IMG/VR virus record: IMGVR_UViG_3300042469_000137
Location: 1 to 50,229 of that record
DNA length: 50,229 nt
Strand: one strand, 5' to 3'
Origin: a virus
Below the pieces are notes generated by a model, which saw only the letters and a program-made list of their open reading frames with translations, was not told the DNA's origin and ran no database searches. The position numbers and the translations under genes are program-made. Numbering within the stretch: the stretch's first letter is position 1; each line of letters begins with the position of its first letter. Shown in pieces: positions 29,132 to 44,238 of this stretch.

Positions 29132-30559
29132 ATGGCTCAAAGTCAAGAATTAGCAGAATTAGGGCAATATTTATCTGTAAATAGTACTTCTAATACCATT
29201 ATTTTTAATGGTATTATTTCTGTTGCTAATGTATCTATGACTTCTGCCGGATTTACAGTTAATGGTTCAACAGTTGTTGTAAACTCTTCTGGTGTTACAA
29301 CAACAGGATTTGTTAATGCTACTTCAAGTGTTAACTCTGCTTCGTATACGACTGGCGGAACAGGAACGAGTACTGGCGGATTTGTTGCTAATACCACTCG
29401 AATTTTTATTGGCAATAATACTGTTAATGCAGCTGTTAATACTACTGTTTTATATATTAGTGGTAATGTTATTGCTAATTCTACTGGCGCTAACAATGCA
29501 TTCAATTTAGGCGGAACTGCTGCTTCTTCCTATCAGCTTAATTCTACTTTAAACGCTAATATTGCCAGTTACCTTCCAACATATACTGGTGTTGTTAATG
29601 GTTCTAGTCATACTGTAGGTTCTTCATTTATTGCTAATGCTACTGGTGTTTATCATACTGGCACAATGAACGCTGCCAGTCTTACAGTGGGAACTTCTAC
29701 AATCGCTAATTCCACTGGCGTTTACACTGGTATTGTTAATGGTTCTAGTATTACAGTTGGAACTTCTTTCACTGCTAACTCTACTGTGGTTAACGCTGTC
29801 AGTTTAAGAGTAGCTAGTAGTTTCTTAGCCAATACTACAGGCGCTTATCATACTGGAACTATGAACGCTGCTAGTTTTACAGTAGGCACCTCAACAATTG
29901 CTAATGCTACTGGTGTTTACACTGGAATAGTTAATGCTACAACGATCTCAACTGGTTCAGTAAACGTAATAAATGCTTCTGGTTTGACAACCTCGGCCAA
30001 CGTTAATATATCAGCAACAGGCGAACTTATTATCACTGCTGGCGCTGGTATATCTGCTAATGGCGGATTTGGTACCGCTGGTCAAGTTTTAACTTCTAAT
30101 GCATCTTCAATATATTGGTCAACAGTTGGCGGTGGTGCTACGCTAACTGCAAATAATACTGACACAGTTACATATTACTTACCTATGGCCAATACTACAT
30201 CAGGCACTTGGTCTAATGCTGTAGTTTCAACCACCAAACTATACTTTGTTCCTTCAACTGGAACTTTGTCCGCTACGATATTCAATTCACTATCAGACGC
30301 TAATCAAAAGACAAATGTTCAGATTATTACCAGTGCTGTTAATACAGTCAGTAAAATGGAAGGTGTTTCGTTCAACTGGAAAGATTCTGGAGCAAAATCA
30401 TATGGTGTTATTGCTCAAGAAATTGAAAAGATACTTCCGGATATTGTCAATGAAAACAATGGAACTAAGTCTGTCAATTATGATGCTATCATAGCGTTCC
30501 TTATTCAATCAGTCAAAGAACTTTCTGAAAGGGTTGAGAGATTAGAGAATGACAAGTAA
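29132..30559 (+). CDS. Tail fibre with C-terminal S74 intramolecular chaperone
   Basis: A 475-residue fibre rich in Asn/Ser/Thr. The body contains repeats of the same VGTSTIANSTGVYTGIVN type as the long fibre at 20499, plus GGFGTAGQVLTSNASSIYW. From about residue 385 it is a Peptidase_S74 intramolecular chaperone: LSDANQKTNVQII, then MEGVSFNWKDSGAKSYGVIA, QEIEKILPDIV and a C-terminal coiled coil (SVKELSERVERLEND). Ser388 and Lys393 have the spacing of the Ser-Lys self-cleavage dyad, although the usual R-L before Lys is N-Q. Such domains trimerise the fibre and are then released. It overlaps the next gene by 11 bases. Confidence 0.85.
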   Translation: MAQSQELAELGQYLSVNSTSNTIIFNGIISVANVSMTSAGFTVNGSTVVVNSSGVTTTGFVNATSSVNSASYTTGGTGTSTGGFVANTTRIFIGNNTVNAAVNTTVLYISGNVIANSTGANNAFNLGGTAASSYQLNSTLNANIASYLPTYTGVVNGSSHTVGSSFIANATGVYHTGTMNAASLTVGTSTIANSTGVYTGIVNGSSITVGTSFTANSTVVNAVSLRVASSFLANTTGAYHTGTMNAASFTVGTSTIANATGVYTGIVNATTISTGSVNVINASGLTTSANVNISATGELIITAGAGISANGGFGTAGQVLTSNASSIYWSTVGGGATLTANNTDTVTYYLPMANTTSGTWSNAVVSTTKLYFVPSTGTLSATIFNSLSDANQKTNVQIITSAVNTVSKMEGVSFNWKDSGAKSYGVIAQEIEKILPDIVNENNGTKSVNYDAIIAFLIQSVKELSERVERLENDK

Positions 30560-31712
30560 TTATCTTGCCGATGATCCAATTTTAGGTAGCGTAGATTTAG
30601 ACGATCTATTTGTCACTGACGCTTGGTTAGTTGATCAGTTTGTTGGTAATCAGATGTGGGCGTTTGGGCAAAACAATTTTGGTCAATTAGGAGACAGAAC
30701 AATAGTTCATCGTTCTTCACCAGTTCAAGTAGGATCGCTAGTAAATTGGAGTCGTGTTGCTGCTGGTAGTGATCATATAGTATCAATAAAAACAGATGGC
30801 ACTTTATGGGCATGGGGTTACGGCGCTCAAGGTCAATTGGGTCTTGGTAATACTACTAGTCGTTCATCTCCAGTTCAAGTAGGTTCATTAACTAATTGGA
30901 AACAAGTGTCAGGCGGTTATTATGAAACATTAGCAATTAAAACAGACGGCACTTTATGGGGATGGGGTTATAATTTTTATGGTCAATTAGGAGATGGAAC
31001 GAGAGTTGATAAGTCTTCGCCTATTCAAGTTGGAACTTTGACTAATTGGAAACAAGTTGAAACCTCATTTGGATTTACAATAGCAATTAAAACAGATGGT
31101 ACGTTATGGGCATGGGGATTAAACGATTATGGTCAATTAGGTTTAGGAGATATAGTTCATCGATCATCGCCTATTCAAGTTGGATCATTAACCAACTGGA
31201 AACAAGTTTCAGTGGGTTATTATAGCACATTTGCGATTAAGACTGACGGAACATTATGGGCATGGGGCAGAAATAATTTTGGGTTTCTAGGAATAGGTAA
31301 TACCGCCCATCGTTCTTCTCCTACTCAAGTTGGATCATTGACTAATTGGAAACAGGTTTCTTCTGGACAATTTCATGTAGCAGCTATTAAAACTGATGGA
31401 ACTTTGTGGAGTTGGGGAAATAATGATTATGGTCAATTAGGCTCAGGGAATTCTACTGGTCGTTCTTCTCCTATACAAATAGGAACATTGACTAATTGGA
31501 AACAAGTTTCCTTAGCTAAATTCAATTATCACACAACAGCAATCAAAACTGATGGTACATTATGGTCTTGGGGGCTTAATATTGAGGGTTACTTGGGTCA
31601 TAATGATCTAGTTTGGAAGTCTTCTCCTGTGCAACTTGGTTCATTAACTAATTGGAAGGAAGTTGCTACTGCATTTAGATCAACTGTAGCAATAACTTAC
31701 ACTGAAATATAA
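30549..31712 (+). CDS. RCC1-repeat seven-bladed propeller, tail protein (copy 1)
   Basis: A 387-residue protein of seven RCC1-type repeats of about 48-51 residues, with consensus 'HRSSPVQVGSLTNWKQVS.G...T.AIKTDGTLWAWG.N..GQLGLG'. The seven 'W.WG' cores are WAFGQNN, WAWGYGA, WGWGYNF, WAWGLND, WAWGRNN, WSWGNND and WSWGLNI. A final half repeat (NWKEVATAFRSTVAI) could close the ring. The N-terminal 35 residues (SVDLDDLFVTDAWLVDQFVG) resemble the docking stretch in the third copy. There is no signal peptide. It starts inside the end of the S74 fibre gene, so it may be its co-assembled tip. Ligand binding by the propeller is inferred. Confidence 0.85.
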   Translation: MTSNYLADDPILGSVDLDDLFVTDAWLVDQFVGNQMWAFGQNNFGQLGDRTIVHRSSPVQVGSLVNWSRVAAGSDHIVSIKTDGTLWAWGYGAQGQLGLGNTTSRSSPVQVGSLTNWKQVSGGYYETLAIKTDGTLWGWGYNFYGQLGDGTRVDKSSPIQVGTLTNWKQVETSFGFTIAIKTDGTLWAWGLNDYGQLGLGDIVHRSSPIQVGSLTNWKQVSVGYYSTFAIKTDGTLWAWGRNNFGFLGIGNTAHRSSPTQVGSLTNWKQVSSGQFHVAAIKTDGTLWSWGNNDYGQLGSGNSTGRSSPIQIGTLTNWKQVSLAKFNYHTTAIKTDGTLWSWGLNIEGYLGHNDLVWKSSPVQLGSLTNWKEVATAFRSTVAITYTEI

Positions 31713-31724
31713 TAGAGGAATAAA

Positions 31725-32378
31725 ATGACTGATTACGTTCTTGTAGAAAACAAACAAATAATTCATCTTGGTCCTATGGGTTGGAAGCCAAGAATGTTTC
31801 AATCTGAATTGAACGATCTTGAAGTAGATTTTACTGTTCCTACAGCAGAACCCGGATACATTCAGATCAATGAAAACTTTGAGATTATGCCTGTGAGTTT
31901 AGATACTCCAACGCATAATCCATTGTTTGAAGAACTGGCAGGTCCATTTTGGACGTATGAAAATAATACTGCTATTGGTCATTACACTGTGCATGACGGT
32001 AATATAGATTCTATCAAAGGCAATTTAAAAAACATCGTCGCTGCTCTAAGATATAATAAAGAACAAACTCCGTTCAAATACACCATTCAAGGAACAGAAA
32101 TTACTGTTGATGCGTCAAGAGAAAACAGAAATATCTTTGTTCAGAAATATCAATTTATGACTGACGCTGAAACTGTTGATTGGAAGTTTCCAGAAACATG
32201 GCTCACACTAACTAAGGCAGAACTCGGCGAATTAGTTGTGGCTGGTGCTACTCACATTCAGACACAATTTGATTGGGAAAAAGGATATGTTGATAGTATT
32301 GAAAGTTCTACAACTATTGACAATCTAAGAAACATTTATAATGAATTGATACCTCCGCCTAATTACTCAGGGGTGTAG
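31725..32378 (+). CDS. Fibre-cluster accessory protein (DUF4376/tail-fibre-assembly-like)
   Basis: A 217-residue protein between the first and second RCC1 genes. The N-terminal 60 residues (DYVLVENKQIIHLGPMGWKP, then FTVPTAEPGYIQINENFEIM) look like the opening of proteins encoded after phage fibre genes. The 120-200 region (NNTAIGHYTVHDGNIDSIKG, NLKNIVAALRYNKEQTPFKY, DASRENRNIFVQKY) resembles the DUF4376 pattern of fibre-associated proteins, which includes a helix pair and an 'R..i......' motif. An assembly or attachment role is inferred from location only. ATG at 31725 follows AGAGGAA. Confidence 0.6.
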   Translation: MTDYVLVENKQIIHLGPMGWKPRMFQSELNDLEVDFTVPTAEPGYIQINENFEIMPVSLDTPTHNPLFEELAGPFWTYENNTAIGHYTVHDGNIDSIKGNLKNIVAALRYNKEQTPFKYTIQGTEITVDASRENRNIFVQKYQFMTDAETVDWKFPETWLTLTKAELGELVVAGATHIQTQFDWEKGYVDSIESSTTIDNLRNIYNELIPPPNYSGV

Positions 32379-32380
32379 TA

Positions 32381-33616
32381 ATGGCTGTTACTGGTCCTAA
32401 CACAGGATTTACACTCACTGAATCAGGAGTAACGAGTGATCTTGGTAATAGGTATGTTTCTAAAGACTATCTACTTGATGTTTATCCCAATTTAGTTTCT
32501 CCAACAGGAAACAGAACTTCTCCTGGATTGTATGTTTGGGGATTTCAAACCAGTCCTAGTGGCGAGTATTTTTTGGGTCTAGGAGACAGTAATCATCGTT
32601 CTTCGCCAGTTCAACTTGGATCGTTGAGTAATTGGAACATGGCTAGTTATGGCGATACTCATGTCATAGCTTTAAAAACAGATGGCACTTTATGGGGGTG
32701 GGGCGGTGATAGTGGATCAAGAGGAGCATTTGGTGTAGTTACTAATTTAGGTGGTACTTATTCAACGCCAATACAGTTAGGCGCTGATACAAACTGGAAA
32801 TTTGTAAAAGCAGGAAGATTATTGTCAGTAGGATTGAAAAATGATGGATCGATGTGGGCGACAGGTTATAACTTAGATGGTCAGTTAGGTTTCGGAACAG
32901 GAGGTGTAAATGTTTCTAGTTGGACTCAAATAGGCTCTGATACTAACTGGAAACAATTAGTGTATGGCGAGTATAGTGGTTACGCTTTAAAAAATAATGG
33001 TACATTATGGAGTTGGGGATTTAATGGTAGTGGTCAATTAGGCCATGGTAATATAGTCCATCGTTCTTCTCCTACTCAAGTTGGTTCATTAACTAACTGG
33101 AAACAAGTTTCTGCTGGTCTTAGATATGGAATGGCAGTCAAAACAGATGGCACATTATGGGCATGGGGTCACAATAATGTAGGCCAATTAGGTTTAGGTG
33201 ATCTTGTTCATCGTTCGTCTCCTGTTCAGGTTGGTTCATTGACCAATTGGAAAGAAGTTTCTTGCGGAGGATGGGCATGTTTTGCGATTAAAACAGATGG
33301 AACATTATGGGCTTGGGGTCATAATCCAGCGGGCGACTTAGGTTTAAACGATACTAATAGTCGTTCTTCCCCTGTTCAGGTTGGTTCATTGACCAATTGG
33401 AAACGTGTTTTTGGTGCCTGTGGTAAAGCAATTAAGACTGACGGAACATTGTGGGGATGGGGACGAAATTCCGAAGGAAATGTAGGAGTTGGTACTGCAA
33501 CAGATAGATCATCACCTATTCAAATAGGCACAGAAACAACTTGGAAATCTTGTAATTACGATGGTTATAACACTACTAGAATGACAACATTCGCAATCAA
33601 AGACGGATATTTTTAA
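32381..33616 (+). CDS. RCC1-repeat seven-bladed propeller, tail protein (copy 2)
   Basis: A 411-residue paralogue of the protein at 30549 with seven 'W.(W/T)G' blade cores (YVWGFQT, WGWGGDS, WATGYNL, WSWGFNG, WAWGHNN, WAWGHNP, WGWGRNS). The first three blades have diverged and carry insertions (for example SGSRGAFGVVTNLGGTYSTP), while blades 4-6 keep the HRSSPVQVGSLTNWK consensus. The N-terminal ~45 residues (SGVTSDLGNRYVSKDYLLDV, then YPNLVSPTGN) match a docking motif found at the start of many large-phage fibre proteins. It starts 2 bases after the accessory protein and ends directly at the third copy. Confidence 0.85.
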   Translation: MAVTGPNTGFTLTESGVTSDLGNRYVSKDYLLDVYPNLVSPTGNRTSPGLYVWGFQTSPSGEYFLGLGDSNHRSSPVQLGSLSNWNMASYGDTHVIALKTDGTLWGWGGDSGSRGAFGVVTNLGGTYSTPIQLGADTNWKFVKAGRLLSVGLKNDGSMWATGYNLDGQLGFGTGGVNVSSWTQIGSDTNWKQLVYGEYSGYALKNNGTLWSWGFNGSGQLGHGNIVHRSSPTQVGSLTNWKQVSAGLRYGMAVKTDGTLWAWGHNNVGQLGLGDLVHRSSPVQVGSLTNWKEVSCGGWACFAIKTDGTLWAWGHNPAGDLGLNDTNSRSSPVQVGSLTNWKRVFGACGKAIKTDGTLWGWGRNSEGNVGVGTATDRSSPIQIGTETTWKSCNYDGYNTTRMTTFAIKDGYF

Positions 33617-34807
33617 ATGCCAGCAATAGGATATAAATTTCCAATCTATAATTCTGATGGTAATGTATCAACTACAAGCGTTGATATGGGCGATATGTTT
33701 GTTTTTAAAGATCAGTTTTTGAATGCCGGATTATATGGGTGGGGAGACGATACTTATGGTCAAATAGGTGCAAATGTGGCAAATGATAGGCGTTCTTCGC
33801 CCGTTCAAATAGGCTCATTGACCAATTGGAAAGATATTACCAATGGGATTCAACATAATCATGCTATTAAAACTGATGGAACTTTGTGGAGTTGGGGTGC
33901 AAACTTTGCAGCACAATTAGGCGACGGAACAACTACTGATCGTTCATCTCCTGTTCAAATAGGAACAGGTACAAATTGGAAACAAATTTCTGCCGGTGGA
34001 AATTTTGTATTAGTTATCAAAACCGATGGCACTTTATGGGGATGGGGGGCCGCATCTTTTGGAAGATTAGGAGACGGAACAACCGTTACTAAGTCTTCGC
34101 CCGTTCAGATAGGAACAGACACAAATTGGAAACAAGTTTCTGCTGGTTTTTTACATGGCGGAGCAATTAAAACCGACGGTACATTATGGACGTGGGGTTA
34201 TAATGTTTTTGGCGCAGTAGGCGACGGAACAACTACTGATCGTTCATCTCCTGTTCAAATAGGAACAGGTACAAATTGGAAACAAGTTTCTGCCGGTTAC
34301 ACACACACTGGCGCTATTAAAACTGATGGTACTTTATGGGTGTGGGGAAACGGAGTTAATGGTAGATTAGGCAACGGAACAACTACTGATCGTTCATCTC
34401 CTGTTCAAGTAGGAACATTATCAAATTGGAAACAAATTTCTAGTGGAGCAGCTCATACTGGCGCTATAAAAACTGATGGTACTTTATGGATGTGGGGTCT
34501 GAATAATGATGGACAATTAGGTGATGGCACTGTTGTTTCAAAATCCTCGCCAATACAAATAGGAACAGGCACAAATTGGAAACAAATTTGCTTATCTAAA
34601 ACTGGATATTATACATTAGCAATCAAAACAGATGGCACATTGTGGGCGTGGGGAATAAACGCCAATATTTCTCCACATGGTAATCTAGGTTTAGGAGATA
34701 TAGTTCATCGATCATCGCCTGTTCAGATAGGATCACTAACTAACTGGAAACAAGTTTCAGCAGGAGAAGTTAGCGCACACGCTATATCTGCACCAGAACT
34801 ACCCTAA
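33617..34807 (+). CDS. RCC1-repeat seven-bladed propeller, tail protein (copy 3)
   Basis: A 396-residue paralogue with seven blades (YGWGDDT, WSWGANF, WGWGAAS, WTWGYNV, WVWGNGV, WMWGLNN, WAWGINA). Blade linkers are more uniform than in copies 1 and 2 (LGDGTTTDRSSPVQIGTGTN, then WKQVSAG), and several DNA stretches are near-identical between blades (around 33940-33980, 34225-34280 and 34375-34410), suggesting recent blade duplication or conversion. The N-terminal 40 residues (TTSVDMGDMFVFKDQFLNAG) differ from copy 2 but resemble copy 1. It is the last fibre-type gene before the glycan island, and its start codon follows the previous stop directly. Confidence 0.85.
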   Translation: MPAIGYKFPIYNSDGNVSTTSVDMGDMFVFKDQFLNAGLYGWGDDTYGQIGANVANDRRSSPVQIGSLTNWKDITNGIQHNHAIKTDGTLWSWGANFAAQLGDGTTTDRSSPVQIGTGTNWKQISAGGNFVLVIKTDGTLWGWGAASFGRLGDGTTVTKSSPVQIGTDTNWKQVSAGFLHGGAIKTDGTLWTWGYNVFGAVGDGTTTDRSSPVQIGTGTNWKQVSAGYTHTGAIKTDGTLWVWGNGVNGRLGNGTTTDRSSPVQVGTLSNWKQISSGAAHTGAIKTDGTLWMWGLNNDGQLGDGTVVSKSSPIQIGTGTNWKQICLSKTGYYTLAIKTDGTLWAWGINANISPHGNLGLGDIVHRSSPVQIGSLTNWKQVSAGEVSAHAISAPELP

Positions 34808-34835: not shown

Positions 34836-36263
34836 ATGAAATCAGATGAAATTTGGCAGTCAATCACTGCTGGTCTTCCAAAAACACCATCACCATCAGA
34901 AACTATTCCGTTACCTGAAATTTTAAGGGTTATGGAATATTGCTTAGACAATCGTGTAGAAAAATTTAACGCTGCTATTGACCTATTAGATTGTATTGCA
35001 CCGCTAAGAAATGATATTGAGTTTCTTAACTTTAAAGCAATGGTCGAGTTCGTTGCAAAAAAGTATAATCGTTGCTTACAAACTTCTGAACAAATTTTAA
35101 ATCACTATAAAGACACCAACACATACTTTAACGCCGGGCGTGCAGCGTATAAAGCCAATCAACTAGAGAAATCATTAGAATATCTCACCAAATCATTAGA
35201 ACTTGATCCAGAAAATGTTTCTGTTCTTCTTGATTACGCTGTCACCATTTGTACCATGGGAGACTTTGATGGTTCATTGGATATTATCAACAACATAGAT
35301 AAATCAAAATATTCCGAAAGAGACCAGAAAGTAACTGACTTCAATAAAGGTTGGCATACTATTCGGAAAGGCGACTTCAAGAAAGGTATGGCTCTACTTA
35401 ATATTGGTCGTGATCTTAAACTATTAGGAACACATTCTGATAAGTATGATCAACCAGAATGGGATGGCACTACATATGAAGGTAAAACTATTCTTATTGT
35501 CGGCGAAGGTGGTATTGGTGACGAAGTAATCAATGCTCGTTTCTCTAAGATCATCAAAGAACGTGGTATGAAATGTATCATGTCTACGGTACATAACAAT
35601 CAGTCTATGTTATCTTCCGTTAGAATGATTGACAAGGTGATTGACAATAAAGACATTCGTAAAGAAAAGTGGGACTACTGGGTTCCTTGTATGTCTCTGC
35701 CATATAAGTTAGGCATAGACTCTAACGAAATACCAAATGAACCATATCTATTTGCTAAACCAGGATATGTTGTTAAGTGGAAGAACAGAATCAAATCTGA
35801 TAAGAAACTTAACATTGGTATTCGTTGGATGGGTAATCCATTATACGAACTAGAATTAGCCAGAACAATTCCTGTAGAATACTTTGACGAACTATCTAAG
35901 TATGACGTTCAACTTTGGTCGTTACAAAAAGATGACGGTGTTCCGTTTAGATTGCCAACTAATACTATAGACTTGGCATCAGGTTTTGAGAATTGGGATG
36001 ATACGATGGGAGCCATTATGAATATGGATCTTGTCATTACATCCTGCACCTCTGTTGCTCATGTTGCCGCTGCTCTTGGAAAACCTACATGGGTTGTAAT
36101 GCCCTTACTTCCATATTATACTTGGGCAGACATGAAAAAAGAATCCTACTGGTATAAGAATGTATCTTGTTACCGTCAAAGAGTATGGCAAGATTGGTCT
36201 GCTCCATTTGATGAATTGAAGAAAGATTTAGAACATGAAATTAAACTTAGCAATTCCAATTAG
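34836..36263 (+). CDS. TPR-containing GT9-like glycosyltransferase
   Basis: A 475-residue protein. Residues about 50-205 are TPR-like helical pairs (FNAGRAAYKANQLEKSLEYL followed by TKSLELDPENVSVLLDYAVT). Residues about 213-475 are a GT-B glycosyltransferase domain of the GT9/heptosyltransferase-like type: ILIVGEGGIGDEVINARF (the 'GEqGiGDe' loop), NIGIRWMGNP, then NMDLVITSCTSVAHVAAALG followed by KPTWVVMPLLPYYTW, which is the usual 'D..is.dTs.aHlagAlG.P.w' nucleotide-sugar site. GT9 includes ADP-heptose transferases, and an ADP-heptose operon lies 2 kb away on the other strand. Acceptor and donor are not shown by sequence. ATG at 34836 follows GAGG; the next gene overlaps by 29 bases. Confidence 0.8.
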   Translation: MKSDEIWQSITAGLPKTPSPSETIPLPEILRVMEYCLDNRVEKFNAAIDLLDCIAPLRNDIEFLNFKAMVEFVAKKYNRCLQTSEQILNHYKDTNTYFNAGRAAYKANQLEKSLEYLTKSLELDPENVSVLLDYAVTICTMGDFDGSLDIINNIDKSKYSERDQKVTDFNKGWHTIRKGDFKKGMALLNIGRDLKLLGTHSDKYDQPEWDGTTYEGKTILIVGEGGIGDEVINARFSKIIKERGMKCIMSTVHNNQSMLSSVRMIDKVIDNKDIRKEKWDYWVPCMSLPYKLGIDSNEIPNEPYLFAKPGYVVKWKNRIKSDKKLNIGIRWMGNPLYELELARTIPVEYFDELSKYDVQLWSLQKDDGVPFRLPTNTIDLASGFENWDDTMGAIMNMDLVITSCTSVAHVAAALGKPTWVVMPLLPYYTWADMKKESYWYKNVSCYRQRVWQDWSAPFDELKKDLEHEIKLSNSN

Positions 36264-36993
36264 AACTTCTGGTGTATATAACTTTTGGAACTCTGAAAGA
36301 TATATCAGTAAAGATAAGGGTCTAATCACTAGAACCTGTATTAAAAGTCTTGCCGCTTCTATCGCTGCATCTCAAGTAAGGCCAATCATATCCATTCACG
36401 ATGATAACTCTGACGATTATACTCTTAACTCTATACACGAATCATTTCATGAATATGGATTAAAGTATGAGTTATATCACACAGAACCACAACAGAACTT
36501 TATATCGCAGTATGAATGGACTATAGAACAAGATTTTGATTTTGTTTATAACATAGAAGATGATTACCTACATTATCCTGCTGCCATACATGATATGGTT
36601 GATATGATTGATTGTATGAATCGGCTAAAACCTTATGACTATGCCATGTATCCATTCAACAATCCACACAGATACCAAAGTTTCGCTGCTTTGTATCCCT
36701 CATATATTGTAAAAGGAACCTACCAGTATTGGCGTTCGCTATTGCATTCAACTCATACCTTTATGTGTTCTAAGAAGTGTTTTGTGGATAATATAGATAT
36801 AATGAAAGACCAAGCATACACTTGGCATGTTGATGCTGCCGTTGAGGATGAAAGCATCAATAAAGTTTGGAGAAACCAGGAAACAATATTATTCTGTCCA
36901 ATGAACTCTCTGGCGTTTCATATGACAGACGTTACACAAAAGCCTGACTTTGATGATTGGCAGACATTATGGAGTTACTATGAAACACGGTAA
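36235..36993 (+). CDS. GT-A-type glycosyltransferase-like protein
   Basis: A 252-residue protein, probably a GT-A fold glycosyltransferase. An N-terminal strand (LNLAIPIRTSG), then RPIISIHDDNSDDYTLNSIH, resembles the GT2 nucleotide-binding start ('i.i.DdnS.D.t'). The acidic motif VYNIEDDYLHYPAAI at about residue 108 corresponds to the metal-binding D-x-D region. The later part has CSKKCFVDNIDIM and HVDAAVEDESINKVWRN, compatible with the acceptor side and a catalytic acidic residue. The gene begins inside the end of the TPR-GT gene and its end overlaps the next GT by 14 bases, so the three are co-translated. Family number is uncertain and the donor is unknown. Confidence 0.65.
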   Translation: MKLNLAIPIRTSGVYNFWNSERYISKDKGLITRTCIKSLAASIAASQVRPIISIHDDNSDDYTLNSIHESFHEYGLKYELYHTEPQQNFISQYEWTIEQDFDFVYNIEDDYLHYPAAIHDMVDMIDCMNRLKPYDYAMYPFNNPHRYQSFAALYPSYIVKGTYQYWRSLLHSTHTFMCSKKCFVDNIDIMKDQAYTWHVDAAVEDESINKVWRNQETILFCPMNSLAFHMTDVTQKPDFDDWQTLWSYYETR

Positions 36994-37819
36994 GACAGCG
37001 GTATATACTATTCTCAAGAATGAAAAGCAGTATATCGAAAAGTGGTTATATTACGCCGATCCTTTTGATTACAAGGTTTTACTTGACACCGGATCAGCTG
37101 ATGGTTCATGGGAAATGTTGCAAGAGGCAGCAACAAAAGATCCAAAACTAATCATTGAACAAAAAACATTTACGCCTTGGCATTTCTCTAATGCTCGCAA
37201 TCATAACATGACAATGATTCCGAATGATGTTATTTGGTGTCTTTCGCCAGACTTAGACGAATACTATTCTATCAATACACATGATCAAATCGAAAAGGTT
37301 ATTGATCAGAATCCTAATGCGACTTCTATTACTTCTGATAGGTTGGATATCTACTCACATCATGTAAAGGTCGGACCACCATTTCTACTACCTACTAACA
37401 AAATTCATCTCAAGGATTATTACAACTGGAAACAGCCGGTGTATGAATACATCAACTATATTGGGCCAGAAGGTTATGATGTTGAAGTTTATGATCCCTT
37501 GATTTGCCTTATTCACGATCAGGATTTTCGTAAGAAAGAACGATCAGAATTATACATCAAACTTATGGAAGACGAATACGCTGTCAATCCCACAAACACT
37601 TGGGTTCTATGGTTTCTAACATATCACTACTATAAGTCAAGGCAAATAGACAAATACATTCCCGCTGCTTGCGATTATATTACTTATCATGACAACATGT
37701 ATGATAATAACTATAAGGGACTTTTGAAGGATCTAACCAACTTATATTTCTTTGATAAAGATGTTACACCAGAGCAGAAAGAACAGATCAAATCAGTAAT
37801 CAAGGGCAAGTCAATATGA
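36980..37819 (+). CDS. Family 2-type glycosyltransferase
   Basis: The preferred start is ATG at 36980 (279 residues). It has GGAG at 36971-36974 and begins the typical GT2 strand (KTAVYTILKNEKQYIEKWLY). An earlier in-frame ATG at 36950 would add ten residues with no family resemblance. Motifs are KVLLDTGSADGSWEMLQEA (about residues 32-50, the 'vvDsgStDgT' loop), WHFSNARNHNMTMIP and VIWCLSPDLDEYY, which holds the metal-binding acidic cluster. The C-terminal 90 residues are helical, with aromatic 'WVLWFLTYHYYKSRQIDKYI', resembling a TPR-like tail common in such phage and bacterial enzymes. It overlaps the following methyltransferase by 4 bases. Donor and acceptor are unknown. Confidence 0.82.
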   Translation: MKHGKTAVYTILKNEKQYIEKWLYYADPFDYKVLLDTGSADGSWEMLQEAATKDPKLIIEQKTFTPWHFSNARNHNMTMIPNDVIWCLSPDLDEYYSINTHDQIEKVIDQNPNATSITSDRLDIYSHHVKVGPPFLLPTNKIHLKDYYNWKQPVYEYINYIGPEGYDVEVYDPLICLIHDQDFRKKERSELYIKLMEDEYAVNPTNTWVLWFLTYHYYKSRQIDKYIPAACDYITYHDNMYDNNYKGLLKDLTNLYFFDKDVTPEQKEQIKSVIKGKSI

Positions 37820-38484
37820 ATAATTTTAGATGGATAATTGAAAACCCTAACGATACTATTCAAAGTTCTTTAAAAGCAGGTCATTTTCACGAACAACGTG
37901 AAATGGAGATTATGAAAGAGTATTGTCCAAAGGGAGCGCATATACTGGACATTGGCGCTAATGTTGGTAATCATTCAGTGTATTTTAGTAAGTTCTTTGA
38001 TGCTGAAATAATCTATGCTATCGAACCATTGCCAGTGGCATACAAGATGTTGTTAGCCAATCTGTGTTTAAACTACTGTCATAATGTTAATGTTGATTAT
38101 GTCGGCGTAGCATTAGGTCATATGGAAACTCAAGGATTTCCGATGGAGATTTATCCTGACAATCTAGGATCAACCAGATTGTTTCATGAAGATAAAACCG
38201 ATTTACCATTTCAGAAGTTTGATCCAGTCAATATCATTCCAGGTGATGTTCTATTTGCTGATAAAAGAGTTGATTTTATCAAGATGGATATTGAAGGAAT
38301 GGAGATGGTTGCTCTTATGGGATTAAAAGAAACCATCGCCAGAAATAGACCTAATATGTTTGTTGAAGTCAGTATTGAAAACGTAGAAGATTTTCACCAG
38401 TGGATGGACGAAAATAACTATAAAGTTGTTTGGAATGAGATAGAACCTAGAATTTTTGCTTCATATATTATCATTCCTCAGTAA
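37816..38484 (+). CDS. FkbM-family SAM-dependent methyltransferase
   Basis: A 222-residue protein. It shows the SAM-binding motif HILDIGANVGNHSVYFSKFF (residues 43-61), an acidic ribose-binding position in YAIEPLPVAYKML (Glu70) and the FkbM hallmark DFIKMDIEGMEMVALMG (residues 153-169), followed by RPNMFVEVS. FkbM enzymes generally O-methylate sugars or related hydroxyls. Here the gene is fourth in a strand-coupled set of glycosyltransferases (4-base ATGA overlap with the GT2 gene), which suggests methyl capping of the glycan being built. Its last 24 bases overlap the 3' end of the convergent hldD gene. Confidence 0.88.
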   Translation: MNNFRWIIENPNDTIQSSLKAGHFHEQREMEIMKEYCPKGAHILDIGANVGNHSVYFSKFFDAEIIYAIEPLPVAYKMLLANLCLNYCHNVNVDYVGVALGHMETQGFPMEIYPDNLGSTRLFHEDKTDLPFQKFDPVNIIPGDVLFADKRVDFIKMDIEGMEMVALMGLKETIARNRPNMFVEVSIENVEDFHQWMDENNYKVVWNEIEPRIFASYIIIPQ

Positions 38485-39261
38485 ATATTCTTCTATGGAA
38501 AGAAACTTATGATCTATAAAATGATTCAATGAGCATGTGAAGTATTGATACTTATTCTCCAGATGTTTTGGAAAGGGAATGCACTCAATTGTAGCGCATT
38601 CTTTTTCAGCAACTAATTGAGCCACCCTTTCAAACGACCTAGCAACTCCTGTGCCGAGATCGTAAATACCAGAAGGTTTATCATAAAACATACAATCAAT
38701 AACATCTTCTACCCAAATAAAGTCTCGCATACATGCGTTAGATTTTTCGAATAGTTTAATTGTTCCTGTTTCTCTTGCTTGTTTGGTGAATTTATAAACT
38801 GGACTTGCTTGGTCGCCTTTGTGGCTTTCGTGTTTGCCAAAAACATTAAAGAATCTATAACCTTGAATTTTAGAAAACTTATCTATATTATCTTCTACAA
38901 ACCTATCAATAGTTGCTTTTGATAGAGCGTAATAATTCAAAGGGTTTATTTCTCTTCTATAATTTGTATTACCATACACTGCAGCAGACGAAGCGTATTT
39001 TACAGGAATTTGATAGTCTATTGCATTATTAAGTAGTTTGATAGTATAGTCTATGTTATACTTGTGTATTTTATTAATATCAGTTTCAGTAGTGTCTGTA
39101 ATAGCTCCAAGATGCCAAATTTGCTTTATTTCTTCCCAATTTATACCCTCGTATAAATCGTCAAAACAATATTGTTTTTCTGAATAATAGATTCCTCCTT
39201 GTGGAAATCTTTGAAGTAAATGTTGACCAATAAATCCGTCAGTCCCTGTTATTAAGATCAT
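38461..39261 (-). CDS. hldD: ADP-glyceromanno-heptose 6-epimerase (HldD-like)
   Basis: A 266-residue short-chain epimerase converting ADP-D-glycero- to ADP-L-glycero-D-manno-heptose. The Rossmann start is ILITGTDGFIGQHLLQRFP (Gly6, Gly9, Gly12). The catalytic Y-x-x-x-K is Tyr111/Lys115, preceded by KYASSAAVYGN. HldD-specific stretches are RFFNVFGKHESHKGDQASPV (Lys148 matches the second catalytic Lys), CMRDFIWVEDVIDCM, GIYDLGTGVARSFERVA, then IECIPFPKHLENKYQYFT. These follow the E. coli HldD C-terminal half closely. It is about 45 residues shorter than E. coli HldD (310). It is the last gene of the minus-strand operon, overlapping the HAD gene by 23 bases and the convergent FkbM gene by 24. 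Confidence 0.9.
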   Translation of the reverse strand: MILITGTDGFIGQHLLQRFPQGGIYYSEKQYCFDDLYEGINWEEIKQIWHLGAITDTTETDINKIHKYNIDYTIKLLNNAIDYQIPVKYASSAAVYGNTNYRREINPLNYYALSKATIDRFVEDNIDKFSKIQGYRFFNVFGKHESHKGDQASPVYKFTKQARETGTIKLFEKSNACMRDFIWVEDVIDCMFYDKPSGIYDLGTGVARSFERVAQLVAEKECATIECIPFPKHLENKYQYFTCSLNHFIDHKFLSIEEYLLRNDNI

Positions 39262-39550
39262 TGAAAAAATCCTCTGAATTTATCGCCTTGTCGTCAATCC
39301 AAACATCATATGATGGTTTATTGAAATTAAGGGAAGTATATTTAACGCCCCATTTTTTAAACTGTTCAATAGTCAAATCGCGCCAATCTTTGCCCGAACT
39401 CATTCCTCTTGCAGTCCAGTAATGTATTTCATAACCAACATCATACAAACTGTTAAGAGTCTCAATTCTTTTTTTGATAGGCAATGAATTAGCGTAATCG
39501 CTATTTTTTGAAATACAAATAGTATTATCAATATCTACCAAATATTTCAT
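39239..39550 (-). CDS. Compact HAD-superfamily phosphatase
   Basis: A 103-residue HAD protein. Motif I is DIDNTIC (Asp6 nucleophile, Asp8 acid/base, Thr10), motif II is YWTARG (Thr46), a candidate motif III Lys is Lys78 (NKPSYD), and motif IV is VWIDDKA (Asp86/Asp87). There is essentially no cap domain. Close relatives by pattern occur in polysaccharide clusters as unspecified phosphatases. In this operon it lies between hldD and a cupin, one gene away from hldE, so a role as the heptose-1,7-bisphosphate phosphatase normally supplied by GmhB is plausible. GmhB itself is about 190 residues and has a zinc loop absent here, so this is not GmhB by descent that I can see. Confidence 0.85.
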   Translation of the reverse strand: MKYLVDIDNTICISKNSDYANSLPIKKRIETLNSLYDVGYEIHYWTARGMSSGKDWRDLTIEQFKKWGVKYTSLNFNKPSYDVWIDDKAINSEDFFNDLNNRD

Positions 39551-39900
39551 TTTTGACTGTCTCCTGGCATTATTCTGAAATCATCGTTATCATAATGTGT
39601 AGTTGAGATTTCGAATACAACAGAATCATCTTCAAGAGCTTCTAATTGATGTGGTTCTCCAGGTTCGTTTGTCCAAGTATCGCCTTCTTTTAAAATATTG
39701 TGTTGAATCGAAGCATCTTTAGTTTCTATCCAATGTATTTTAAATTTTCCTTTTTGAACATAAAACGTTTCATGTTTTTTTAAATGAAAATGCATAGATC
39801 CTTTAGAGCCAGCTTTATCATATACTAATAACTTACCACAATATTTGTCGTTGTTTTCAATTATGAGTTCTCTACCCCATCCTTTATTGACAATCTGCAT
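39547..39900 (-). CDS. Single-domain cupin, sugar-isomerase-like
   Basis: A 117-residue cupin. Cupin motif 1 is GSMHFHLKKHETFYVQKG (metal ligands His37, His39, Glu44, closing Gly51). Cupin motif 2 is GDTWTNEPGEPHQLEA (Pro80, Gly81, His84 ligand). The start (NKGWGRELIIENNDKYCGKL) resembles mannose-6-phosphate-isomerase-type small cupins ('kpWG.e....n..Y..K.l'). It sits between hldE and the HAD gene, overlapping each (17 and 4 bases). Metal-dependent sugar-phosphate isomerisation or a sugar-binding regulatory role are both possible; sequence alone does not settle it. Confidence 0.85.
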   Translation of the reverse strand: MQIVNKGWGRELIIENNDKYCGKLLVYDKAGSKGSMHFHLKKHETFYVQKGKFKIHWIETKDASIQHNILKEGDTWTNEPGEPHQLEALEDDSVVFEISTTHYDNDDFRIMPGDSQK

Positions 39901-41038
39901 TTAAATGCTCCAAAGTTTTTGTAGTAGAGTAGCCCTTAACAAATGGTATTATTACGACCTTTGTTAAATCGTTACCTACAACTTCTTCAGGTTTATAGTC
40001 TCCGCCCTTTGTAATTATATCTGGCTTCAATTTTTTTATTAATTCATAAGGAGTATCTTCGTTAAAAATAATAACTTCATCGACACAATCTAGAGCTTCT
40101 AGAACTGCTTTTCTGTCTTTCTGATTGTTTATAGGTCGTTGTTCGCCTTTTAATCTTTTGATTGATTCGTCTGAATTCAAACCCACTATCAATTTATATC
40201 CAAGTTTTCTAGACTCTTTTAGATATTCTATGTGGCCTCTATGTAGAATATCAAAACAACCATTAGTGAATACTACAGAGTTTTTAGCAATATTTTCTTT
40301 TGATAAAACATATGTTCCGAATTTAGTAACTGAAATACTGGCCAATCTCACAGCCTTTGAACAAGCATCATAAAGGTTGTTTCCGATACTAAGATAGTGA
40401 GTCATAGCTGCGATGAATACATCTCCTGCGCCAGTAACATCAGAAACTGGATGTTTGTCTGTTGATATTTCTCCTTCGAAATCGTCAGAGGAAATATATA
40501 CTCCATTCTCTCCCTTTGTGACTACAATAGATCCTATGTTGAATAATTTTCGAAGCTGAAAAGGCGTATTACCGAATCCATATTCTTCAAGTTCTTTTTG
40601 GTTCAATTTTATTATACTTGAATTTTTATAATTGTCAATAGGTTTTTTGGGATCTACTATAACTTTAGAACCTTTTTTAATAAAATTATCAACTATCAAT
40701 TGGCTGTGATGTAAGAATCCTTTGTTATAATCAGAAAGAATCACATAATCCGGATTAACTGGAAAATCTATATCTTGATTTGGGATATATTCTTCTTCGT
40801 CAGAACGAAACATTATATGATTATCGCATACGAATCTGGTCTTTTTGGAATTAAAAGAAGCAAAAATCTCAGTATCCGAACCAAGAGCTTGGAGATTCTC
40901 GTAGACATTTCCTGCACCGCCTGAACGAAATTCAGTAGTTTTAGATTTGAAAACAGGTATGGGAGACTCAGGCGATATACGGTCTACGGTGCCATATATA
41001 TAAATATCTTCTATGTAATCACCAATCACTGCGATCAT
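39884..41038 (-). CDS. hldE: Bifunctional heptose-7-P kinase / heptose-1-P adenylyltransferase (HldE-like)
   Basis: A 384-residue two-domain enzyme of ADP-heptose synthesis. Residues 1-245 are a PfkB-type kinase: DRISPESPIPVFK (the HldE substrate signature, E. coli ...RISPEAPVPV), FRSGGAGNVYENLQALG, VILSDYNKGFLHHSQ, VDPKKP and DVTGAGDVFIA with catalytic Asp206. Residues 254-384 are the nucleotidyltransferase: VFTNGCFDILHRGHIEYL (HxGH at 266-269), RPINNQKDR and GYSTTKT. E. coli HldE has 477 residues; the kinase half here is shortened. The chosen ATG at 41038 begins a standard kinase strand (MIAVIGDYIEDIY) after AGAGAG. An upstream ATG at 41086 adds 16 hydrophobic residues without homology. It is first in a four-gene overlapping operon. 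Confidence 0.93.
   Translation of the reverse strand: MIAVIGDYIEDIYIYGTVDRISPESPIPVFKSKTTEFRSGGAGNVYENLQALGSDTEIFASFNSKKTRFVCDNHIMFRSDEEEYIPNQDIDFPVNPDYVILSDYNKGFLHHSQLIVDNFIKKGSKVIVDPKKPIDNYKNSSIIKLNQKELEEYGFGNTPFQLRKLFNIGSIVVTKGENGVYISSDDFEGEISTDKHPVSDVTGAGDVFIAAMTHYLSIGNNLYDACSKAVRLASISVTKFGTYVLSKENIAKNSVVFTNGCFDILHRGHIEYLKESRKLGYKLIVGLNSDESIKRLKGEQRPINNQKDRKAVLEALDCVDEVIIFNEDTPYELIKKLKPDIITKGGDYKPEEVVGNDLTKVVIIPFVKGYSTTKTLEHLNADCQ
40999..41006 (+). promoter_or_regulatory. T4-type late promoter (exact TATAAATA) inside the 5' end of hldE, antisense
   Basis: This is an exact late-promoter match on the + strand, about 95 bases upstream of the S74 fibre gene at 41101 and within the first codons of the minus-strand hldE. 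Late transcripts from it would start near 41013 and be complementary to the hldE start and ribosome binding site. The match is direct; activity and any antisense effect are inferred. A second, weaker AT-rich element (CTAAATAT, about 41060) lies closer to the gene. Confidence 0.55.
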
Positions 41039-41100: not shown

Positions 41101-44100
41101 ATGGCAGATAAAGATTTCGTCGTAAAAAATGGTCTAGTTACCGGAACTAATAACGTCACAATAGGTAACTCAGTATATATAGTTGCCAATGGCAACGTCG
41201 GCGTTGGCACTGATACCCCTAATGCTCTGGTGACTATTGTAGGTCCAACCACTAACGCAACTAATTTAAATATTAATGGTTTGACAGTAACTTATAATAG
41301 TAACACGTTTAATAATTCTTCCAATGTAGGCGGAGCTGCTATTGGTGGATATAATGCTAACGGTTTTGGCGTTTTAGGTAGATCTGGTCCTGGTATAGGC
41401 GTTATTGGTGTTGCTAATGTTGGTGGTGGATATGGCGTTGGAGGTTACGCCCATTCAACGGCAGATTCTTTTTCGGTCGCAGGCTATTTTCTCAACCAAA
41501 GTAATGGTATTGGCGTTAGAGCAGCATCAGTTTCTGGTAGACCGTTCGTTGTTGCTAATGCCACAGTAGATATTATGACTGTGATTTCTAATGGTAATAT
41601 TGGTATAGGAGATTCTTCTCCTGCAGTTAGATTAGTTGTTAATGGATCAATCAATGCTACTAGTATAAACGCTGCTTCTTATACAGTTGGAACATCATTC
41701 ACTGCTAATTCTACTCTAGTAAACGTTGTTTCTTTATCAGTTTCTACTAACACATCTACCTTCGGTACAGCAGCCCGAATAGTTGCTAACGGCAACATCG
41801 GTATAGGAACTGCTACCCCTAATTCTCTAGTAACTATTGTAGGTCCGGCTGCTAATGCAACCAATTTAGATATTAATGGTTTGACAGTAACTTATAATAG
41901 TAACACATTCACTAATTCGGTAAATACTGGTGCTGCAGCTATTGGTGGATATAATGCTAACGGTTTTGGTGTTCTTGGTAAATCAGGGGCTGGTATAGGC
42001 GTTATTGGTGTTGCTAATGTTGGTGGCGGTCAAGGAGTTGCAGGTTACGCCCATTCAACGGCAGATTCTTCTTCAATTGCAGGATATTTCTTTAATCAAA
42101 GTAATGGTACTGGAGTCTATGCTAGATCTTTTGGCGGTAGACCATTCGTTGCTGCTAGTAATACTGCAGAATATATGAGCATTTCAGCTAACGGTAATAT
42201 TGGTATAGGAGATTCAACCCCTGCAGTTAGATTAGTTGTTAATGGATCAATCAATGCTACTAGTATAAACGCAGTTTCTCATACAGTTGGAACATCATTC
42301 ACTGCCAATTCTACTCTAGTAAACGCTGTTTCGCTAGTAGTGTCAACTAACACTTCTACTTTTGGCACAGCAGCCCGAATAGTTGCCAATGGTAACATTG
42401 GCGTTGGTACTGCTACTCCTGGTGAAAAAATTACTGTCATTAGTACCGATAGTACAGGGGCTGCGGGATTTCAAACTTTATCTGGAACTGCGACAGCTCT
42501 GGGAGCTGCAGCTAATGCTGGCGTTGGAGCTTATATCCAATCTAGAACTGGTAGGCCATTAGTTGTTGCTAATAATACTACAGAATTTTTCCAAGTTGTT
42601 GCTAATGGCAACGTCGGCGTTGGCACTGCTACCCCTAATTCTCTAGTAACTATTGTAGGCCCAACCGCTAATGCTACTAACCTAGATATTAATGGTCTAA
42701 CAGTTACCTATAATAGTAACACATTCACCAGTTCTTCTAATGTAGGCGGAGCTGCTATTGGTGGGTATAACGCCAATGGTTTTGCTGTTCTTGGTAGATC
42801 TAGCGCTGGTATAGGTATTGTTGGAGTTGCTAACTCTGGTAGCGGTATTGCTATTGCAGGTTATGCTCATGCAACAACTAATTCTTCTGCGCATGCAGGT
42901 TTTTTCTTGAATTCAAGTAATGGAATTGGCGTTAGAGCGGCGGTCTCAACAGGTGGTAGACCTTTCGTTGCTTCTAATGCTACTGTAGAATTTATGTCTG
43001 TTGAAGCTAATGGCAACATTGGTTTCGGCAATTCATCGCCTAGATCTAAATTACATATAACCAGAAGTTCGGGCGCCAGCGCCGCTGGCGAAATATATTT
43101 GGATGAAGGTTTATATTGGTCCATGTTGAACAGTCGGTCGACCGTTGGCGCTTGGAATCCATTAGTACAAACTAATGATCATACTTTAATATATTCTGAT
43201 GGTTCGGCTGATACTGGCGCTTTGGTCATTGGACCATGGTCTTCTGATAACAAAGGTATGCGTATCGCTAGTAATGGTAGCATTGGTATTGGTACTGCTA
43301 CTCCTGGCGAAAGAATTACTGTAATTAGCGCCGATGGTAGAGGAGCTGGATTTTTTCTATCCAATACAGGTAATGGTTTGAGTAGCAAAACTGAAAATGG
43401 TTTTGCTGGAATTATTGGTGTATCTAACTCTAGTTCATCATCTGTCGCTATTGCTGGTTACGCTAATACTGGATATGGTGGTTATTTTCAAACTTTCTTT
43501 GGGACGCAGACAGCTCTAGCAGCTGTAGCTAATGCTGGAGTTGCAGTTTACGCTCAATCCGGAACTGGTAGACCATTAGTTGTTGCTAATAATACTGTAG
43601 AATTTATGTCTGTTCAAGCTAATGGCGCTGTTTTATTTGCTGGCACTCATCATAATATATCCAGTCTCGGTGGAGTTTTTAGGACTGGCGCTGGCGATTA
43701 TGGTGTTAGAATTTATCCAGGTGGCGGTAGTGATTCGAATACTGCTATATTACAATTCACAAACGCTGCTCAAAATACACAAACAGCCCAAATCGCAGTA
43801 AATTCTGCAGGTCTTTTTGTGGGTACTTCTGTTAGCACCTCTGTTTATTTTGTAGCCGGTGGTTCAGTAAAGGCCACATTAGATCCAAGTGGTAATTTCG
43901 TCGCCAATGGTAATATTACTGCATTTGGCGCGACTTCCGACGAAAGATTGAAAGAAAATATTACACCATTTTCAAACACACTAGATAAAGTAAAAAGACT
44001 TCAAGGCGTTACTTATAATTGGAAAAAAGGAACCGCTGAACGTGATTTTGCTGGTATCAATAATGATATTGGTTTGATTGCACAGAACGTCCAAGAAGTA

Positions 44101-44238
44101 TTTCCAGATCTAGTTCGTGAAAGCGAAGACGGTTATCTTTCTTTGCGCGATAGAGGTTTGTTTGCAATTCTAATCGAAGCAATCAAAGAACAACAAAATC
44201 AAATTGATGAACTTAAAAAAATGTTGGAGAATAAATAA
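41101..44238 (+). CDS. Long tail fibre with 600-bp repeats and C-terminal S74 chaperone
   Basis: A 1045-residue fibre. It begins DKDFVVKNGLVTGTNNVTIG, a common fibre head ('dfivknGl.v...'). The body is built of modules NGNVGVGTDTPNALVTIVG, GLTVTYNSNTFNNSSNVGG, AAIGGYNANGFGVLGRSGPG and GRPFVVANATVDIMTV, repeated two full times and partly a third. Residues 938-1045 are a Peptidase_S74 chaperone: GATSDERLKENITPFSNTLD (Ser946, Lys951 dyad), LQGVTYNWKKGTAERDFAGI, then IGLIAQNVQEVFPDLV and a final coiled coil (EAIKEQQNQIDELKKMLE). It would trimerise and self-cleave at Ser946. The stop overlaps the ATG of the Gly-rich adhesin gene. Confidence 0.9.
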   Translation: MADKDFVVKNGLVTGTNNVTIGNSVYIVANGNVGVGTDTPNALVTIVGPTTNATNLNINGLTVTYNSNTFNNSSNVGGAAIGGYNANGFGVLGRSGPGIGVIGVANVGGGYGVGGYAHSTADSFSVAGYFLNQSNGIGVRAASVSGRPFVVANATVDIMTVISNGNIGIGDSSPAVRLVVNGSINATSINAASYTVGTSFTANSTLVNVVSLSVSTNTSTFGTAARIVANGNIGIGTATPNSLVTIVGPAANATNLDINGLTVTYNSNTFTNSVNTGAAAIGGYNANGFGVLGKSGAGIGVIGVANVGGGQGVAGYAHSTADSSSIAGYFFNQSNGTGVYARSFGGRPFVAASNTAEYMSISANGNIGIGDSTPAVRLVVNGSINATSINAVSHTVGTSFTANSTLVNAVSLVVSTNTSTFGTAARIVANGNIGVGTATPGEKITVISTDSTGAAGFQTLSGTATALGAAANAGVGAYIQSRTGRPLVVANNTTEFFQVVANGNVGVGTATPNSLVTIVGPTANATNLDINGLTVTYNSNTFTSSSNVGGAAIGGYNANGFAVLGRSSAGIGIVGVANSGSGIAIAGYAHATTNSSAHAGFFLNSSNGIGVRAAVSTGGRPFVASNATVEFMSVEANGNIGFGNSSPRSKLHITRSSGASAAGEIYLDEGLYWSMLNSRSTVGAWNPLVQTNDHTLIYSDGSADTGALVIGPWSSDNKGMRIASNGSIGIGTATPGERITVISADGRGAGFFLSNTGNGLSSKTENGFAGIIGVSNSSSSSVAIAGYANTGYGGYFQTFFGTQTALAAVANAGVAVYAQSGTGRPLVVANNTVEFMSVQANGAVLFAGTHHNISSLGGVFRTGAGDYGVRIYPGGGSDSNTAILQFTNAAQNTQTAQIAVNSAGLFVGTSVSTSVYFVAGGSVKATLDPSGNFVANGNITAFGATSDERLKENITPFSNTLDKVKRLQGVTYNWKKGTAERDFAGINNDIGLIAQNVQEVFPDLVRESEDGYLSLRDRGLFAILIEAIKEQQNQIDELKKMLENK
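41191..42390 (+). repeat. Two tandem 600-bp coding repeats (plus a partial third)
   Basis: The unit starting at 41191 recurs at 41791 with an exact 600-base period, and the boundary sequence recurs again at 42391. Long stretches are identical between copies, for example around 41640-41700 and 42240-42300. After 42391 the third copy switches to another module for 216 bases, then the same 'GNVGVGTATPNSLVTIVG' module resumes at 42607 and runs to about 42990. All are in frame. This is a site prone to recombination, or to assembly collapse. Confidence 0.9.

Follow-up and report, generated by a model that had tools for sequence, protein, structure and literature searches.

The window, a stretch of 50,229 bases from a T4-like phage (IMG/VR record IMGVR_UViG_3300042469_000137, positions 1 to 50,229), carries a four-gene cassette on its minus strand, in the order hldE-cupin-HAD-hldD from 41038 down to 38461. 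The remaining listed genes of the window run along the plus strand (among them are those for the large terminase, a baseplate tube cap, tail fibres and head-tail proteins), and the cassette is one reversed block. Its open frames encode a fused HldE of 384 aa (39884-41038), a cupin of 117 aa (39547-39900), a small haloacid dehalogenase (HAD) protein of 103 aa (39239-39550) and an HldD of 266 aa (38461-39261). The end of each gene overlaps the start of the next, in agreement with the original prediction, made from the letters of the window, of four overlapping genes on the strand opposite to the virion genes; hldD further shares 24 bases with the plus-strand gene that converges on it (37816-38484). 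The G+C content is 32-33% in the cassette, versus 36% in the window. The counts of promoters and terminators in the window are close to the mean of shuffled sequences. The four open reading frames (ORFs) are not due to chance, given their scores with family models (295.6 bits for HldE and 207.6 bits for HldD) and the fact that their relatives are grouped together in other phages.

ADP-heptose is a sugar nucleotide with which bacterial surfaces are decorated. Its synthesis normally starts with GmhA and needs the phosphatase GmhB; the steps and the chemistry of this pathway are textbook knowledge. The original prediction saw in the cassette an accessory set of genes for making ADP-heptose, which is well supported at the sequence level, but it missed the gap left by GmhA and GmhB and the roles that the cupin and the HAD protein may have. 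The cassette is likely to be a self-contained four-gene path from sedoheptulose-7-phosphate, a common metabolite, to ADP-L-glycero-beta-D-manno-heptose, a product which would be used by glycosyltransferases. We infer each catalytic activity, the succession of the reactions and the fate of the product. Comparative evidence (co-occurrence in phages, archaea and bacteria, gene fusions and active-site residues) places the cupin and the HAD protein at the GmhA and GmhB steps. The cupin, of the D-lyxose/D-mannose isomerase type, would convert sedoheptulose-7-phosphate into D-glycero-D-manno-heptose-7-phosphate, from which the kinase domain of HldE would form the 1,7-bisphosphate. The small HAD protein would remove the 7-phosphate (the reaction of GmhB), the transferase domain of HldE would add AMP, and HldD would epimerise C6. 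Glycosyltransferases would then alter a surface glycan or a virion protein with this product; the enzymes of the phage itself are the likeliest users, among them a GT9-like protein encoded at 34836-36263.

HldE consists of a kinase domain (residues 1 to about 248) and a heptose-1-phosphate adenylyltransferase domain (about 249 to 384). The alignment with the proteins of E. coli K-12 shows that the kinase motifs GD..D.Y.YG..DRISPESP, GG..NV and DVTGAGD (GAGD) and the transferase motifs NGCFDILHRGH, NSD, KGGDY and F-V-K-G-Y-S-T-T are kept in HldE, as are TGTDGFIG (TGxxGFIG), SSA, YxxxK and HKG in HldD. The HldE motifs have catalytic roles, and so have TGxxGFIG, YxxxK and the HKG lysine of HldD. 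The signatures on which the original prediction relied (DRISPESPIPV, HRGH and ESHKGDQAS) are present, and the loss of catalytic residues on alignment, which it had named as damaging to its case, is not observed. Both proteins are, as it had said, shorter than their E. coli counterparts (384 vs 477 aa and 266 vs 310 aa), which it took as a hint of a long divergence from the host's lipopolysaccharide copies. In HldE the kinase lid region and much of the linker that joins its two domains are missing, and HldD lacks a segment of about 24 residues that follows its first helix. The same losses are shared by the other phage proteins of the alignment (three HldE and four HldD); the 24-residue segment is retained in the 291-aa HldD of two phage loci (L006 and L008), so that the shortening is not universal among phage HldD. 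The best match of HldD in the PDB is E. coli HldD (1eq2, 1.6e-37). According to excerpts of PMC11461863, an arginine in the STTR5 motif is linked to the use of CTP and UTP by promiscuous transferases. The window transferase has a tyrosine at the position of this arginine, which makes ATP the expected nucleotide.

D-lyxose/D-mannose isomerases interconvert a ketose and a manno-configured aldose, which is the same type of reaction as that of GmhA on sedoheptulose-7-phosphate. The window cupin matches Cupin_2 (1.1e-7) and Lyx_isomer (2.2e-4); its Lyx_isomer score of 21.0 bits lies at the Pfam cut-off of 20.8, and a relative in another phage (L005) scores 17.3. The AlphaFold model of the cupin has a mean predicted local distance difference test score (pLDDT) of 97.3. 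The top Foldseek hits of this model are D-lyxose isomerases (7nzp/7nzo), with the Thermofilum enzyme bound to D-fructose first. In VIA-align, D-lyxose isomerases have Z scores of 13.9-14.3 and the highest identities of the table (26-30%).

In the part of PMC8378251 which deals with the Thermofilum D-lyxose isomerase, the residues in contact with the sugar are K62, H75, H77, K86, E88, H143, E156 and D163; the activity was abolished by mutating the counterparts of K86, E156 and D163, and strongly reduced by mutating that of E88. Seven of these eight contacts correspond to K23, H37, H39, K42, E44, H84 and E97 of the window cupin, and are invariant across 55 relatives. For the eighth contact the window cupin has D104, a position with aspartate in only 36 of the 55, next to which stands the invariant D106. 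The manganese ligands of this type of isomerase (H, H, E, H) correspond to H37, H39, E44 and H84. The residues were matched by alignment with 2y0o and by their spacing, and the K, HxH, K-x-E, H and E positions line up with those of the B. subtilis D-lyxose isomerase in the profile alignment. Both lysines are absent from the aligned second domain of the bicupin 2vqa. The name of the matching family phrog_7851, cysteine dioxygenase, was rejected for the cupin: D-lyxose isomerases head the Foldseek list, in which row 45 is the first with a putative cysteine dioxygenase. The cupin is probably a metal-dependent sedoheptulose-7-phosphate isomerase which replaces GmhA with an unrelated fold, a prediction from sequence and comparison.

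The 103-aa HAD protein matches phrog_1238 (1.1e-27) and, below the cut-off, TIGR01689 (EcbF/BcbF; 4.5e-10, 39.6 bits for a cut-off of 162). The motifs D6xD8xT10, T46, K78 and D86-D87 can be read from its sequence, and such motifs have established roles in HAD proteins. The GmhB model is absent among the family-search hits of this protein, and a Hydrolase_3 search of the window gave no match. A phmmer search with E. coli GmhB found five other phage loci and not L001, the record with the cassette of the window. The name of phrog_1238, phosphoheptose isomerase, was set aside because of the phosphohydrolase motifs and of the alternation of the HAD protein with GmhB in phage loci. The HAD protein is probably the heptose-1,7-bisphosphate phosphatase, as a predicted replacement of GmhB.

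This alternation was seen in 37 HldE-bearing phage loci, which were found via HldE or HldD and not via the cupin. The rows L018 (same contig as L001), L041, L036 and L037 (distant epimerases only) were dropped before counting. The loci are not independent, since the cupins are identical in L006 and L008, in L010 and L016, and in L025 and L026. A cupin of at least 95 bits is present in 33 of the 37; two of the four others lie at a contig edge, one has a cupin of 74 bits and one has none. The HAD protein is found in 25 loci and a GmhB homologue in five (L002, L007, L010, L016 and L020), and the two never occur together (one-sided Fisher 0.002, kinship ignored). GmhA itself was searched for in phage records, most of which are fragments: TIGR00441 has no match in 15 records, including the complete P-SSM2, S-SSM7 and P-TIM68, and SIS_2, the GmhA fold, has none above the cut-off in 38 records (one sub-threshold match, 14.2 bits). 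The 105-kb record L001 matches neither model. Three short contigs filed as Planctomycetaceae TMED10 or Euryarchaeota TMED129 (L091, L093 and L110) have cyanophage-like cassettes, and their cupins branch with those of phages; these contigs may come from phages and have been binned with cells.

The cupin also occurs in cells. A scan of contigs with the cupin alignment gave cellular loci, of which the best 80 of 85 were kept, and several loci of DPANN archaea and candidate phyla radiation (CPR) organisms read cupin-HldD-HldE kinase-GmhB-HldE transferase. The HldE transferase model alone was then used on 279 genomes of the phylum of one of these archaea, to avoid the bias of a selection by the cupin. 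Regions were taken around 66 places of at least 103.6 bits, leaving out places below this score as well as G051, G046, G053 and G248. The first three are loci already found through the cupin (L124, L116 and L127), all of the cupin type, and G248 was overlooked. Seventeen of the 66 regions were dropped because the kinase or the transferase was below threshold, among them L178 (GmhA, no kinase) and L206 (a GmhA-kinase fusion, with a transferase of 78 bits for a threshold of 80). Both kinase and transferase are present in the 49 remaining DPANN loci. GmhA lies within 3 kb in 30 of them and the cupin is present in nine; none has both and ten have neither (one-sided Fisher 4.5e-5, kinship ignored).

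The cupin occupies the operon slot of GmhA in archaeal loci. Each also occurs fused to the HldE kinase in a single open frame: GmhA in L176, L200, L206, L232 and L234, and the cupin in L172 (7285-8400), L173 (5710-7053) and L182 (5058-6425). Other single open frames join the cupin to HldD (L126, 7980-9236) or to GmhB and the transferase (L235, 6908-8419). On a tree of the kinases of the 39 loci with GmhA or the cupin, the type of isomerase switches seven times, at least two of the switches being forced by starred branches, and 14 of the 36 inner branches are unresolved. At the scale of the genome, a GmhA-sized SIS_2 protein is found in none of the nine cupin-type genomes (five have no hit and four have partial hits in proteins of 352-622 aa), in the eight GmhA-type genomes searched (eight of 30), and, away from the locus, in four of the ten genomes with neither gene; many of the DPANN/CPR genomes are metagenome-assembled genomes (MAGs), which may be incomplete. 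Direct observation covers the genes and motifs, which of the genes occur together, and the swaps of the cupin with GmhA and of the HAD protein with GmhB.

The bacterial genomes were chosen by the cupin only; there are 29 of them, in which 30 of the 80 cupin loci lie. The HldE transferase is present in every one (at least 163 bits in 28), and few have it inside the fetched flank of the cupin. GmhA reaches at least 100 bits in seven of them. In the clade that holds the Binataceae, this is the case in three of 22 genomes, and SIS hits of 44-49 bits occur in another three. For comparison, GmhA is present in 123 of 148 genomes from the phylum of one of the Binataceae-type genomes; a close cupin (at least 140 bits) occurs in two of the 148, neither of which has GmhA of at least 100 bits. 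The exclusion between cupin and GmhA is strongest for the close cupin subfamily and is not absolute. A single origin of the heptose-linked cupins was considered and rejected, since the cupin tree needs 11 label changes, but this tree has only 116 columns and is poorly resolved.

Several observations weigh against a cupin and a HAD protein in the places of GmhA and GmhB. Some of them suit another explanation, in which the GmhA of the host does the first step, the cupin is a later accessory enzyme (an epimerase or isomerase acting on the finished sugar nucleotide) and the HAD protein is a generic sugar phosphatase. Cupins are functionally diverse: the top VIA-align match of the model is CapF (Z 16.2, 19% identity), and KdgF and oxalate decarboxylase are also among the fold-search hits. 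The tops of Foldseek and VIA-align differ, so the fold alone is not decisive. The bacterial cupins are often away from hldE, and many cellular relatives of the cupin are in loci without hldE. In a MAG of Acidimicrobiaceae (L108, 7854-9769), the cupin and a GmhA homologue (138 bits) lie about 0.9 kb apart, together with parts of HldE. Among the DPANN/CPR genomes found through the cupin with the HldE kinase beside it, four of 13 have GmhA elsewhere, and the same search gives GmhA of at least 80 bits in five of nine other cupin genomes, which makes nine of 22. GmhA also coexists with six weaker cupins (85-105 bits) of the same bacterial phylum in five of the six genomes. The 22 Binataceae-type genomes are one clade in the cupin tree; the missing GmhA may therefore be one loss, and the Fisher value of 2e-10 overstates the exclusion. 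As for phages, seven of the 37 loci have neither HAD protein nor GmhB, three of them being cut by contig ends. One phage locus (L013) has an ORF for a GmhA-like SIS-domain protein (16569-17108, 80 bits) 7 kb from its cupin. The gene gmhA is named as a phage auxiliary gene in the part of PMC9238414 concerned with such genes, so that other phages may carry a true GmhA.

A host GmhA followed by an accessory cupin is nevertheless unlikely. It is at odds with the presence of the cupin in the slot of GmhA and its fusion with the kinase in archaea without any GmhA-sized SIS_2 protein genome-wide, with the lack of GmhA of at least 100 bits in 19 of the 22 cupin-bearing Binataceae-type genomes, and with the fact that the invariant residues of the cupin are those of a ketol-isomerase.

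The scores of HldE and HldD count against an assignment to ADP-heptose as well. The original prediction had proposed searches with hidden Markov models of the TIGR02197, TIGR02198 and TIGR02199 type; these do give matches, but all below the curated cut-offs of NCBIfam. HldE scores 295.6 bits with the full-length model NF008454 (cut-off 521), its kinase domain 167.1 bits with TIGR02198 (cut-off 345) and its transferase domain 179.5 bits with TIGR02199 (cut-off 181.5), and HldD scores 207.6 bits with TIGR02197 (2.4e-61, cut-off 274.6). The window HldE is thus a divergent homologue and not a certified equivalog. If the specificity of HldE and HldD has drifted, the cassette could make another activated heptose or hexose, differing in configuration or in nucleotide. 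The lack of about 24 residues near the expected cofactor site of HldD and of the lid region of the kinase would be consistent with such a drift. The catalytic motifs are intact, however, the transferase is without the arginine linked to CTP/UTP use in the excerpts of PMC11461863, and the same enzymes are found together in archaeal operons with GmhB and GmhA, all of which makes another product improbable. That the cassette is a decaying or non-functional passenger, as the shortened proteins might suggest, is hardly credible, given four open and overlapping frames, the conservation of active-site residues and the recurrence of the set in phages whose HldE is fused or split.

The proposed path to ADP-heptose leads to the question of its product, on which the neighbouring genes bear. 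Three plus-strand genes, all with matches to glycan-related families, lie just upstream of the cassette. The first (34836-36263) encodes a 475-aa tetratricopeptide repeat (TPR) protein (Pfam TPR, 1.5e-6) with a C-terminal domain resembling glycosyltransferases of GT9, the heptosyltransferase family (0.027). The second (36950-37819) is a homologue of family 2 type glycosyltransferases (phrog_13126, 2.5e-27; Glyco_tranf_2_4, 4.8e-6, 27.4 for a cut-off of 27.5), and the third, which is convergent with hldD (37816-38484), encodes a methyltransferase of the FkbM family (PF05050, 1e-15; TIGR01444, 1.6e-25). A 252-aa ORF between the TPR protein and the glycosyltransferase (36235-36993) has no match in PHROG, Pfam or NCBIfam. 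On the other side, a plus-strand gene divergent from hldE (41101-44238) encodes a long tail fibre-like protein with a C-terminal S74 endosialidase-chaperone domain (PF13884, 1.8e-18; tail-fibre PHROGs). Further away, the proteins encoded at 30549, 32381 and 33617 (region 30549-34807) match PHROGs named regulator of chromosome condensation. They are close to the tail-fibre genes, and would be unusual as presumed virion or adhesin genes.

GT9 enzymes are defined by a D-T/S-G motif in their second half. The AlphaFold model of the TPR protein is only fair (pLDDT 69). In VIA-align, its C-terminal half matches GT9 structures with Z scores of 14.7-16.9 (3tov 16.9, WaaF 15.7, TibC with ADP-heptose 15.4, WaaC 15.3), the first non-GT9 row being at 13.5. 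A Foldseek search with the whole chain has a capsule multienzyme, SPINDLY and OGT at the top and WaaF at rank ten. The Pfam GT9 model (E-value 0.027 in the window) is absent in six close relatives of the protein, and the D-T/S-G motif is replaced by S-C-T-S in the window protein and in five aligned phage homologues. Homologues of the TPR protein occur in the HldE phage loci L005, L011, L017, L019 and, weakly, L004, and also in seven contigs (L043-L049) where no cassette was seen. It is possible that the TPR protein, as modelled, uses ADP-heptose. The tail fibre as the acceptor of a glycan is speculation, and so is the heptosylation of the tail fibre or of a host glycan. A wider proposal combines a second, independently evolved cupin isomerase in tailed phages, DPANN archaea and Binataceae-type bacteria with a self-sufficient phage in the window, which would heptosylate its own tail fibre or virion protein by means of the TPR-GT9-like transferase; taken as a whole, it is doubtful.

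If the cupin is a second family of isomerase, the genomes with HldE and without GmhA would have to be re-scored, including archaea and the 19 cupin-bearing Binataceae-type genomes, and two misleading names would be corrected (cysteine dioxygenase for phrog_7851 and phosphoheptose isomerase for phrog_1238). The phosphatase reported as missing in viruses would also gain a candidate. According to excerpts of PMC11461863 and PMC11573728, ADP-heptose feeds lipopolysaccharide synthesis as well as the glycosylation of proteins, and the mammalian kinase ALPK1 senses it. Viral enzymes of the NDP-heptose pathway have already been reported as functional (Tang et al., Science 2024, as presented in these excerpts), and the commentary states that the phosphatase is absent in viruses. 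A HAD or GmhB candidate is found here in 30 of the 37 phage loci. A cupin isomerase is not named in the same excerpts, and the open-licence literature of PMC gave no cupin in the heptose pathway beyond single co-mentions of the words.

With respect to the GmhA-HldE-GmhB-HldD pathway of E. coli, the window has homologues of HldE and HldD with intact catalytic motifs, and a cupin and a 103-aa HAD protein instead of GmhA and GmhB. The D-lyxose/D-mannose isomerases of Thermofilum (7nzo-7nzq) and B. subtilis (2y0o) are the best Foldseek match of the cupin and share its metal and sugar-contact residues. They are longer (175-204 aa vs 117 aa) and 22-30% identical, and the predicted substrate of the cupin is phosphorylated and has seven carbons. 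The TPR protein recalls both the TPR glycosyltransferases OGT and SPINDLY and the GT9 enzymes WaaC, WaaF and TibC, since it combines a TPR part with a GT-B domain whose nearest VIA-align matches are GT9 structures. It retains the G-D motif found in the first half of GT9 enzymes, whereas V-D-T-G of E. coli WaaC and N-D-S-G of WaaF correspond to S-C-T-S in the window protein and its five phage homologues.

The most similar gene sets are those of cyanophages. The cluster T4-GC 304-308 of P-SSM2, also found in S-SSM7 and P-TIM68, groups the same transferase, kinase, HAD, cupin and HldD genes. In these three phages HldE is split into two separate proteins, whereas it is fused in the window, and HldD is on the opposite strand or elsewhere in the order, unlike the hldE-cupin-HAD-hldD order of the window. 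Their cupin and HAD proteins are annotated as cysteine dioxygenase and phosphoheptose isomerase. The search rows of S-CAM1 and S-CAM3 likewise list a kinase, a transferase, HldD and an adjoining cysteine dioxygenase. The cluster of S-SSM7 lies beside gp13-gp17, while a tail-fibre gene and one or two small ORFs intervene in the window; in the phage locus L019, hldE adjoins a gp13-like gene. Among named phages, the matches that cover most of HldE and those to HldD at 44-54% identity come mainly from cyanophages. The phage of the window was not assigned to the cyanophages: the 105-kb record with the same cassette, possibly a fragment, is without psbA, which three cyanophages have, and the terminase is nearest to that of Sinorhizobium phages (56% identity). 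The gene set itself is thus already known from cyanophages, and what is new is the likely roles of the cupin and of the HAD protein.

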